Assembly (NCBI GenBank): GCA_024398965.1
Contig: JAKSIF010000012.1
Coordinates: 1 to 64,000 of the forward strand
Direction of reading: 5' to 3'
DNA length: 64,000 nt
Origin: Fibrobacter sp.
Lineage (GTDB): Bacteria; Fibrobacterota; Fibrobacteria; Fibrobacterales; Fibrobacteraceae
Under the pieces are notes generated by a model that had not been told where the DNA came from, did not search any database, and worked only from the letters and a program-made list of their open reading frames with translations. Every line of letters starts with the position of its first letter. Position 1 is the first letter of the stretch. This document shows positions 53,540 to 56,406 of this stretch, one piece after another. The position numbers and the translations under genes were made by a program.

Positions 53540-54916
53540 ATGAAGAAATTGCTGAAAATAATAATCGTGGTCGCCATTTTGGCCGGCATCGGATGTGGAG
53601 TCAAGACTTTCGTCCTAGACAAGAAAGCCGAGGCCCAGATAGCCACCCTGGTTACCGCAACCGTCGTCCAGGCAGATATTTCCACCACTATTTCTGCAAC
53701 CGGTTCCCTGGAGCCTGTGGACCAGGTTGAAGTGGGCACCCAGGTTTCCGGCGACATCAGCAAGATTTATGTGGATTTCAATTCAAAAGTCAAGAAAGGG
53801 CAGGTCATTGCAGAGTTGGACAAGTCCAAGTTGCAGGCAACCTTGAACCAGGCGGAAATCGCCTACAAATCTGCGGAAAACGATTTCAACTACAAGAAGA
53901 ACACCTTCGAACGAACTAAAAAACTGGCAGAGAGCAAAAGCGCCAGCGCCGTGGAATTGGAAACCGCAGAATACAACATGAACGCAGCCCAATTCACCGT
54001 GGAACAACGTAAGAACGAAGTTGCCCAGGCTCGACTGAACTTAAGCTACGCCACCATCAAGAGCCCCATCAGCGGCGTGGTTTTAAAGCGAGCTGTTGAC
54101 GTAGGCCAAACGGTAGCCGCCTCCATGAGCACCCCCACCCTGTTCATCATCGCAAAAGACTTGAGCCAGATGAAAGTCATGGCCGCTGTAGACGAAGCGG
54201 ACATTGGACAGGTAAAGGCTGGCCAGCGTGTTGAATTTACGGTAGACGCCTTCCAGGAAGACAAGTTCAGCGGAAAGGTTCAAGAAGTAAGACTGAACCC
54301 GACTACAACATCCAACGTGGTGACATATACGGTTGTCATTACCGCAGAAAATCCTGAGCAAAAATTACTGCCCGGCATGACCGCCACTTGCACCATCGTG
54401 ACAAAGGAAGTAAAGGACGCCATCGCAGTTCCTGTTAAAGCATTGAAGTTTACGCCCGACGAAAGCACCCCCATGGCAGAACGCAAGAGACCTCACGATG
54501 GCATGGGCCCCGATGGCAAGCATCATCCGGAAGGCTTTGCCGGCAAGGACTTCGCAAGCAAGGAAGGCAAAATGCCTCCTCCTGGCATGGGTGCAGGCGG
54601 ACCTCCCCCAGGCGGCCCCGGGATGGGTCCCGGCGGATTCGAAAAGGGTGGCTTTGGCGGAAAAGCTGGTGGCAAGCGCAAACCTCACCTGAAGGGCGAC
54701 CACGTGTGGGTGAGCATCGATGGAAAGGCTGCCCCCCGCCGTATTGAAATCGGCATTAGCGATGGCGTGAACGTAGAAATTCTTAAGGGACTAAGCGTTG
54801 GCGACAATGTGGTAATCGGCCAACAGACTGCAGCCGAAGAAGTCAAGGCAAAAGAAGAAGCCCGAAGCCCCTTCATGCCAGGGCCGCCAAAGGGAACCAA
54901 GAAGTTCAAGAAGTAA
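53540..54916 (+). CDS. MacA-like periplasmic adaptor with Gly/Pro/Met-rich insert, orphan
   Basis: This 458-residue membrane-fusion protein has an N-terminal anchor (LLKIIIVVAILAGIGCGV), barrel-sandwich and alpha-hairpin (about 55-215, QVEVGTQVSGDISKIYVDFNSKVKKGQ ... SPISGVVLKRAVDVGQTVA), a beta-barrel and a membrane-proximal domain. Residues about 315-390 are an unusual Gly/Pro/Met/Lys-rich insert (PPPGMGAGGPPPGG, GMGPGGFEKGGFGG) that splits the last domain. MacA partners the ABC transporter MacB, but no MacB or TolC gene follows; the next 548 bases have no gene. A promoter-like box CTATTTTATAAG lies 12 bases before the ATG. Confidence 0.88.
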   Translation: MKKLLKIIIVVAILAGIGCGVKTFVLDKKAEAQIATLVTATVVQADISTTISATGSLEPVDQVEVGTQVSGDISKIYVDFNSKVKKGQVIAELDKSKLQATLNQAEIAYKSAENDFNYKKNTFERTKKLAESKSASAVELETAEYNMNAAQFTVEQRKNEVAQARLNLSYATIKSPISGVVLKRAVDVGQTVAASMSTPTLFIIAKDLSQMKVMAAVDEADIGQVKAGQRVEFTVDAFQEDKFSGKVQEVRLNPTTTSNVVTYTVVITAENPEQKLLPGMTATCTIVTKEVKDAIAVPVKALKFTPDESTPMAERKRPHDGMGPDGKHHPEGFAGKDFASKEGKMPPPGMGAGGPPPGGPGMGPGGFEKGGFGGKAGGKRKPHLKGDHVWVSIDGKAAPRRIEIGISDGVNVEILKGLSVGDNVVIGQQTAAEEVKAKEEARSPFMPGPPKGTKKFKK

Positions 54917-54968
54917 ACTTAAGGCTGTAGAAAAGTCACCTTTAGAAAACGTCTTTTCCCTTAAATTA

Positions 54969-55195
54969 GGTTACTAAAAGCCTTATAACGATTAATTTAG
55001 TAACCCGTTTTTCATACAAATTCACATTTCTCGTTAAAAAAAAGCCTACTTTTCATTTTAAAAGGTTACTGAAAGATAAAAAAGAAGAAGTTTAGTAACC
55101 CCTACAAACGACAACATCTTAAAAAGTGACACACGCTATACACACAAATTAAAAATAAGGTCACTAAACGATTCAAAAATAAAGTTTTAGTAACC
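54969..55195. repeat. Array of three long-spaced dyads at exact 95-bp period
   Basis: The units 54969-55005, 55064-55100 and 55159-55195 each consist of GGTTACTAAA (variants GGTTACTGAA and GGTCACTAAA), 17 unrelated bases, then an invariant TTTAGTAACCC. Each unit is 37 bp from GG to the second CC, and successive units start exactly 95 bp apart. The sequence between arms and between units is not conserved. The G in unit 2 keeps pairing as G-U in RNA; the C in unit 3 is a mismatch. The stretch 54917-55225 has no gene. It might be a multi-site operator or a chain of RNA hairpins. Confidence 0.85.
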
Positions 55196-55225
55196 CTTTT
55201 TCAAAAAATTTAAACTTGTATAAGC

Positions 55226-55257
55226 AAAAAAGACTTCCTTTAACGGAAGTCTTTTTT
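55226..55257. terminator. Bidirectional terminator
   Basis: AAAAAAGACTTCC and GGAAGTCTTTTTT form a perfect stem around a TTTAAC loop. It can stop transcription from either side; it probably ends the minus-strand aldolase transcript after the palindrome cluster. Confidence 0.9.
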
Positions 55258-55325: not shown

Positions 55326-55372
55326 CGGCTCGGCAATGGAAAAATGCAAGCATTTTTCCGCTGCTCTCGCCT
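55326..55372 (-). repeat. Palindromic module, copy downstream of the aldolase gene
   Basis: The flanks CGGCTCGGCAAT and GCTGCTCTCGCCT match, in reverse complement, the ffh modules at 16443-16559. The core is a different perfect palindrome, GGAAAAATGC-aa-GCATTTTTCC (55338-55359). It is followed by CTTAATCG, which repeats the end of the adjacent aldolase gene. Confidence 0.8.
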
Positions 55373-55381
55373 CTTAATCGT

Positions 55382-55408
55382 GGCGCTAGTTATTTCATAA
55401 CTAGCGCT
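55382..55408. repeat. Perfect hairpin between two modules
   Basis: GCGCTAGTTAT-ttc-ATAACTAGCGC is an 11-bp stem with 3-base loop. It lacks the module flanks but sits between two CTTAATCG spacers. Confidence 0.7.
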
Positions 55409-55416
55409 CGATTCTT

Positions 55417-55463
55417 CGGCTCACCTATGCAGAAATGCGAGCATTTCTGCGCAGGATTCGCCT
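55417..55463 (-). repeat. Palindromic module abutting the aldolase stop codon
   Basis: The flanks CGGCTCACCTAT and GCAGGATTCGCCT enclose the perfect palindrome GCAGAAATGC-ga-GCATTTCTGC (55429-55450). It ends one base before the stop codon of the aldolase gene. Confidence 0.8.
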
Positions 55464-55464
55464 C

Positions 55465-56406
55465 TTAATCGTTCATCATATGATCGAAGAACTTGCGGTA
55501 GTTGTCCTTGTCTTCGGTCTTACGGACGGCGATAGCGTCCTGGGGATGACGGTTCAGCATACCGGTGATCATCTGCGGGATGATGTAGCCCCATTCGTAC
55601 TTGGCCTGGAGCGGGAGGAACAATTCCTGGTAGGCATCGAGAACCGGACGCAGATCGTACTTGGGGTTCTTCAGGAAGCCAAGGAGAAGTTCGGTAGTGC
55701 AGTTACCAGCGCCACGGCCCATGCCGGAAACAGAACCATCAAGGAAGTCAACATGGTTGATGATAGCCTGAATGGTGTTGGAGAAAGCCAGCTGCTGGTT
55801 GTTGTGGCCATGGAAACCAAACTGCTTGTTCTTTACGATGCCCTTGTAGCGCTGCATTTCCTTATCAATGTCTTCCTGGTAGAAGGCGCCGAAGGAGTCC
55901 ACGAGATAAAGCACGTTGGCCTTGCATTCTTCGTTGACCTGGTGCAGAGCTTCGTCCAGTTCCGGACCGCGGTCACGGCTCACAGCCATGATGTTCAAAG
56001 TGGTTTCGTAGCCCATGTCGTGGAAGGCGTTCACCATTTCGATACCCTTGTCGATGTTCTTCACGTAAGATGCAACGCGGAACATCTGGTAGGGGCTTTC
56101 AGAAGCGGGCTTCACGGCGTCCATGTTCACGCGGCCCACGTCGGCCATCACAGCCATCTTCATCTTGGAATCGATACCGTCCTTCACCTTCCAGAGCAGA
56201 TCGTCATCGCAGAACTTCCACGGGCCGTATTCCTTGGGGTCGAACAGTTCCGGAGAGTTCTTGTAACCCATTTCCATGTAGTCAACGCCAGCGGCGCTGA
56301 GGAGGGTGTAAAGACGACGGACGAATTCCAGGGAGAAGTCGTGCTTGTTGACGAGACCGCCATCGCGGATGGTGCAGTCGAGAACCTTAATGCTTTCGTA
56401 GTACAT
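55465..56406 (-). CDS. DRE-TIM family aldolase (HMGL/4-hydroxy-2-oxovalerate aldolase-like)
   Basis: This 313-residue protein opens with the DRE-TIM metal motif in the form DCTIRDGG (residues about 10-17) and has the metal-ligand segment FGFHGHNNQQLAFSN and the phrase SGMGRGAGNCTTELLL. These match the HMG-CoA lyase-like superfamily, closest in pattern to 4-hydroxy-2-oxovalerate aldolases, but the partner acetaldehyde dehydrogenase is absent, so the natural substrate is unclear; pyruvate-releasing cleavage or condensation is likely. It is monocistronic. Its stop codon (GATTAAGAGGCGA) is embedded in the start of the palindromic module series. Confidence 0.8.
   Translation of the reverse strand: MYYESIKVLDCTIRDGGLVNKHDFSLEFVRRLYTLLSAAGVDYMEMGYKNSPELFDPKEYGPWKFCDDDLLWKVKDGIDSKMKMAVMADVGRVNMDAVKPASESPYQMFRVASYVKNIDKGIEMVNAFHDMGYETTLNIMAVSRDRGPELDEALHQVNEECKANVLYLVDSFGAFYQEDIDKEMQRYKGIVKNKQFGFHGHNNQQLAFSNTIQAIINHVDFLDGSVSGMGRGAGNCTTELLLGFLKNPKYDLRPVLDAYQELFLPLQAKYEWGYIIPQMITGMLNRHPQDAIAVRKTEDKDNYRKFFDHMMND

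Follow-up and report, generated by a model that had tools for sequence, protein, structure and literature searches.

The DNA analysed here, referred to as the window, is a stretch of 64,000 nucleotides from Fibrobacter sp. (GenBank assembly GCA_024398965.1, contig JAKSIF010000012.1). An array of three dyad units, each 37 bp long, lies in it between two converging genes, which code for a MacA-like adaptor and an aldolase (Table 1). The units start exactly 95 bp apart, at the positions reported in an earlier note made on this DNA. The array also contains two copies of a second motif, M, with the family consensus ACAAANTAA, which the earlier note had not listed; the pair sets the polarity of the array, here +. 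The hairpin that adjoins the array probably serves the converging genes and lies outside the element. The two half sites listed in the earlier note are present, but they are mere matches of 7-8 bp, and no link between them and the array was seen. The low-complexity insertion of the macA-like gene is unusual-looking for the family. Two 56-bp modules, 79% identical and 91 bp apart, lie directly against the aldolase gene at its 3' end. Each has a near-perfect short palindrome, and similar modules occur at this place in the genomes G065 and G035; they are a separate repeat family, distinct from the array.

Table 1. Features of the window in and around the array, with window coordinates.
Feature	Position	Strand	Description
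half site	52371		7-8 bp match
macA-like adaptor gene	53540..54916	+	converges with the aldolase gene
low-complexity insertion in the macA-like gene	54480..54700		Gly/Pro/Lys-rich (GPGMGPGGFEKGGFGGKAGGKRK)
dispersed element, approximate extent	54940..55225	+	limits inferred from related copies
dyad unit 1	54969..55005	+	GGTTACTAAA-N17-TTTAGTAACC, perfect arms
motif M1	55016..55024	+	ACAAATTCA, 11 bp past unit 1; register as in other arrays
dyad unit 2	55064..55100	+	GGTTACTGAA-N17-TTTAGTAACC, single arm change, 95 bp from unit 1
motif M2	55144..55152	+	ACAAATTAA, 6 bp ahead of unit 3
dyad unit 3	55159..55195	+	GGTCACTAAA-N17-TTTAGTAACC, single arm change, 95 bp from unit 2
hairpin adjoining the array	55226..55257	.	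intrinsic-terminator-like, with T/A runs
two 56-bp modules	55326..55472		separate repeat family
aldolase gene	55465..56406	-	
half site	56519		7-8 bp match

The whole genome from which the window comes (3.59 Mb) was searched with up to 3 mismatches allowed. Nine dyads were found, all within three 3-unit arrays with spacings of 95 and 95 bp (C12), 95 and 74 bp (C4), and 95 and 85 bp (C25). The reversed-pattern control gave 0 matches across the entire genome. Because the control yielded nothing and all nine dyads belong to 3-unit arrays, the window dyads are not a product of chance. Past the C4 array, at a distance of 136 bp, begins a TIGR02147 paralogue (L005:10175-11032); no link of this paralogue with an array was seen elsewhere.

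A search of related Fibrobacter genomes, as the earlier note had proposed, revealed a genus-wide family of arrays with spacings on whole helical turns. By pattern and locus searches of the genus and of every GTDB r220 species representative, 89 distinct arrays were collected, which lie at 50 loci; the per-genome counts are lower bounds. Exactly three units were found in 74 of the 89 arrays, four in one and two in 14; at least some of the two-unit arrays contain a decayed unit. The arms vary among genomes (GGTTACTAAA, GGGTACYAAA, TGNTACCAAA), the architecture is constant, and the inner spacer of all units is 16-18 bp long. Among the matches listed from GTDB r220, the stretches with at least two phased dyads are all from Fibrobacter, and those elsewhere are single sites. 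No description of these arrays was found in the open-access literature, in line with the earlier note, whose author knew of no element of such form. A term search of the F. succinogenes S85 genome paper (PMC3079729) found nothing on such repeats. Two other kinds of repeats were seen. One is another 37-bp inverted repeat, GTTTACTAATCACTAAATTCATTCCTGTTTACTAACC, with a conserved inner sequence in several genomes (G006:C95/C110/C146/C156, L019, L033, L046), which is probably a different repeat or an element end. The other consists of tandem repeats of about 64 bp that lie near an array, within a coding region or next to it (L212:4868-5153).

The distances between units are strictly limited. All of the measured unit spacings (n = 158, related copies included, so that independent events are fewer) fall at 74, 84-87, 94-96, 105-107 or 117 bp. 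These are whole turns of the helix, with Rayleigh R = 0.962 at 10.55 bp and zero phase offset. A separate set of arrays with other arm words, linked to the gene described below, gave the same period (R = 0.96). According to the consensus, the arm hexamers within one unit are about 31 bp apart, which is three turns. In 41 independent loci, the AT content rises and falls in register with the dyad centres, in the filler between units as well as in the flanks 12-70 bp beyond the array (p <= 0.0005 for each, phase about 0 bp); control intergenic DNA had no AT periodicity. As the phased AT content reaches out to 70 bp, the DNA looks wrapped on protein. The whole-turn spacing and the AT phasing are together consistent with curved or wrapped DNA that carries an assembly of protein on one of its faces. 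Binding of a protein to one face, as suggested in the earlier note, has thus gained strong support at the level of sequence.

The comparison of orthologous arrays established which parts are conserved. The arms are 94.6% identical and the M motifs 91.8%, while the drifting parts are less so (inner spacers 83.2%, filler 80.4%, flanks 79.6%). Gap positions are few in the filler (18 in 1,876 aligned columns) compared to the flanks (275 in 3,335). Selection on geometry, proposed in the earlier note, is strongly supported by the whole-turn spacings, the few indels and the arms that are kept while the filler drifts. The same note had considered that each unit is an RNA stem with a loop of 17 nt; such a stem would have 10 bp and act within a transcript. 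The arms are indeed complementary, and many arrays lie close behind stop codons, but whole-turn spacing and AT phasing are properties of DNA. The arm mismatches have no clear G-U bias (79 vs 58, plus 88 other mismatches), and Rfam gave no match above the gathering score, with sub-threshold matches at the terminator only. We therefore consider an RNA function highly improbable.

Arrays at unrelated loci can share homology over the array alone (e.g., 84.6% over 254 bp and 79.7% over 281 bp), and the homology then ends sharply, between a few and about 40 bp beyond the dyads. In the copies related to the window array, it begins 5-27 bp before the first dyad and stops 7-41 bp past the last one. One such array, in G097, is absent between the same gene pair in nine relatives, which is a gain in a single lineage. 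The homologous copies at unrelated loci and this empty site led us to abandon the idea that the arrays evolved where they now lie. With regard to mobilisation, only patterns of gain and duplication were seen; neither a transposition intermediate nor a target duplication or a junction turned up, and the sole empty site examined had no clean duplication.

The first clue to a linked gene came from two array loci, representing both arm clades, which had a common neighbour: a gene downstream of the array that codes for a protein of about 280 aa. This uncharacterised protein, with the working name RALF, consists of a variable N-terminal half and a C-terminal domain of PD-(D/E)XK type. A search of the genus found RALF in 48 of 80 genomes. 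The region within 700 bp upstream of each gene was scanned for phased dyads of any word, and an array was present in front of 40 of 51 distinct RALF genes compared to 5 of 308 control genes. With a stricter score, upstream arrays were found for 36 RALF genes and 1 control gene. The upstream linkage is clear from these numbers, with the reservation that the 51 genes include orthologues of one another and are not fully independent. The other 11 of the 51 Fibrobacter RALF genes had no upstream array by the detector used. At the home locus, the last unit lies about 40-250 bp ahead of the RALF start codon, and the polarity points to the gene. Five loci have the order array-RALF-array, with the arrays in direct repeat in an LTR-like manner (70-91% identity over 240-300 bp); the second array of these cassettes begins 17-51 bp past the RALF stop codon. 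Either recombination that left a single copy or a separate insertion could account for a solo array.

Phased, cooperative-looking sites that stand upstream of a gene and point toward it are typical of operators. RALF might accordingly be mainly a site-specific regulator, with the array as its cooperative operator and the solo arrays as a scattered regulon. The solo arrays, however, avoid promoters and lie near stop codons: 5 of 57 are between divergent genes and 23 of 57 between convergent ones, with a median distance of 86 bp from stops and 199 bp from starts. Their neighbours are unrelated housekeeping genes, with no shared family among the flanking genes. The macA neighbour of the window array, mentioned in the earlier note, is incidental in the same way. 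A domain of nuclease type is also not in favour of a pure regulator, and we regard this explanation as unlikely.

In the case of the C-terminal half of RALF, homology and conserved motifs place it as a predicted domain of the PD-(D/E)XK superfamily. It matches the C-terminus of the PADLOC family PDC-S68 (7e-30) and, at 0.0017, HEAT_CxxC_PD-DEXK; it also resembles the C-termini of plasmid helicase-like proteins. The motifs RSK(S/T)E, PDF and WEH are conserved in 20 of 20 RALF sequences. Pfam and NCBIfam have no family for RALF and gave no transposase, Y1_Tnp, recombinase or resolvase match, and the comparison with solved structures gave no relevant match. AlphaFold, run on five sequences, gave a mean pLDDT of 53, and neither domain was confirmed; the order of secondary structures in the model is compatible with a PD-(D/E)XK-type fold, but its quality is too poor for use.

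Each RALF clade has its own array word, e.g., TACCTATAAA, TAGGACTAAA, GTGACTAAAA or ACAGGCCAAA, and the arm words follow the RALF protein tree. The RALFs with GGTTACT and TGTCACT, the latter being the RALF at C28 of the window's own genome, share up to 97% identity over the C-terminal half and about 48% over the N-terminal half. The values for GGGTACC and GGACTCC are 93% and 42%, respectively. In pairs that share a word, the N- and C-terminal identities are similar. Because the word changes coincide with replacement of the N-terminal half while the nuclease half stays, this co-variation indicates that the word is read by the N-terminal half. RALF very probably reads the array word in front of its own gene.

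Several RALFs with different words coexist within one genome, and words diversify fast by replacement of the N-terminal half, as an arms race would give. Together with the relationship of the RALF nuclease domain to the C-terminus of the candidate defence protein PDC-S68, this agrees with a role in self-marking or defence, in which RALF, held or guided by its cognate arrays, would attack DNA that lacks the word or has newly acquired it. RALF itself, though, is not a PADLOC family, and 2.9 million viral contigs of IMG/VR contained no array with the words tested, only single sites. RALF was not found among these contigs either, and such a role appears to have a small chance of being correct. A viral origin of the arrays and RALF was rejected on the same scans; only weak partial matches were seen, in unannotated gut phage contigs.

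The polarity of the arrays was followed with the M motif. Arrays of every arm type have ACAAANTAA at two places, about 11 bp past unit 1 and 6-7 bp ahead of unit 3, and both copies point the same way. For 37 of 46 arrays, the polarity is concordant with the GC skew (20-kb windows, p = 4e-5). When determined from the long and short spacings, it is independent of gene strand. In orthologous pairs, the polarity relative to the genes is identical even where the arms differ. An apparent restriction of the replication-following polarity to one clade was an artefact of the long/short spacing, as the M motif reveals it in both clades. These properties would suit oriented protein-binding sites that organise or mark the chromosome or pause replication, like matS, SlmA or Ter. 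Against this, the number and places of the arrays differ widely between species, with gains in single lineages, and the array of the window is among those that disagree with the skew. Replication-biased insertion is possible for mobile elements too. The direction of the arrays tends to follow replication as a bias, not a rule, and a role in chromosome architecture is, in our opinion, rather improbable.

The locus of the window was compared in three related genomes. It has no array in G065. In G075, an array with the word TGTCACT (TGTCACTAAA) is present, and its outer units are 178 bp (17 turns) apart; the word is that of the array beside the RALF of that genome at C28. In G035, the arms are CTAGTGCRAA, with unit distances of 64, 137 and 201 bp (6, 13 and 19 turns). 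The own genome of the window contains three solo arrays with GGTTACT, one of them the window array, and three with TGTCACT. The words of its RALF-linked arrays are TGTCACT, GGGTACC and TAGGACT. As the nearest related RALF of this genome carries TGTCACT, unlike the GGTTACT of the window, the GGTTACT solo arrays, including the window array, may be orphans of a RALF that was lost or changed.

RALF was also found in a second phylum, in 32 of 80 Lachnospiraceae genomes. Of 30 loci, 12-13 had repeated dyads upstream, mostly at whole-turn spacings, e.g., 53, 63, 106 and 149 bp, compared to 4-5 with repeated dyads downstream. The array-RALF association appears to be present there in a less regular form. 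At these loci (L459-L488), a contig end lies within 800 bp of RALF upstream in 8 of 30 cases and downstream in 2, as if an upstream repeat breaks assemblies.

The window array is not an isolated oddity. It belongs, as a solo representative, to a dispersed family that is associated with a nuclease. We lean toward the view that it is a solo copy of a dispersed element of about 250-290 bp, whose units would be read by the N-terminal part of RALF. In this reading, the whole would be a nuclease-linked dispersed element that works in a manner similar to REPIN-RAYT and is outside every family tested. According to this proposal, the N-terminal part of RALF would bind its own word on the array. Because the hexamers are about three turns apart and the units 6-11 whole turns apart, RALF would sit on one DNA face, with the DNA curving around the protein. 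It could control its own gene through the upstream array, and RALF-dependent cutting or repair might copy or mobilise arrays into other intergenic places, where they would later be kept or decay. At some loci, position and polarity have been conserved for longer than a simple mobile-repeat model would predict. The chances are even, in our estimation, that a wider, undescribed nuclease-array class exists, in which a PD-(D/E)XK protein would recognise a helically phased, DNA-wrapping array through an exchangeable reader at its N-terminus. The protein would stand between LTR-like direct copies of the array and would seed or police solo arrays across the chromosome, both in Fibrobacter and, under different words and spacings, in Lachnospiraceae.

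The scattered array element is apparently undescribed. Its word also stands in front of the nuclease gene, which suggests that gut bacteria have a small mobile or self-marking system of a new kind. If this is true, a DNA word that stands beside a gene and changes with one half of its protein would make the recognition code of this protein-DNA pair readable from genomes alone. An apparently non-transposase enzyme would join the short list of bacterial systems in which dispersed palindromic repeats are maintained. It would also be a rare bacterial case in which DNA wrapping is indicated, directly at the level of sequence, by whole-turn spacing and nucleosome-like AT phasing.

The arrays were compared to several known systems. 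Serine resolvase res sites (Tn3/gamma-delta) consist of three dyad subsites, the geometry of which matters. Unlike them, the arrays have the same 16-18 bp spacer in all units, units 63-117 bp apart and dispersed copies, and the linked RALF has no recombinase match in Pfam or NCBIfam. BOX, ERIC and NEMIS/Correia elements are short non-coding intergenic repeats with partial palindromes; to our knowledge, they have not been described as having units spaced by whole turns or a cognate nuclease gene whose word matches theirs. In relation to insertion sequences and MITEs, the homology borders are sharp and an array is absent from the same locus in relatives, with no clean target duplication at the one empty site examined. 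A transcription-factor operator would be expected in a promoter region, which is where the array lies for RALF genes but not for solo arrays. PDC-S68 has a C-terminal nuclease domain homologous to that of RALF, yet it is a protein of about 1200 aa, whereas RALF has about 280 aa and a different, variable N-terminal half. The closest parallel is REPIN-RAYT, in which REP doublets are combined with REP-associated tyrosine transposases (PMC3116915, PMC2817692). Like REPIN-RAYT, the arrays are dispersed extragenic inverted-repeat elements with solo copies elsewhere in the genome, and a repeat flavour stands beside each gene, the words co-varying with the RALF tree and the N-terminal half. In contrast to the Y1/HUH transposase, RALF is of the predicted PD-(D/E)XK type, with no Y1_Tnp match. 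Instead of doublets of two short imperfect palindromes in hundreds of copies, the arrays mostly contain three 37-bp dyads with arms that are non-palindromic 10-bp words, phased on whole helical turns and accompanied by a separate M motif, in a few to about twenty copies.
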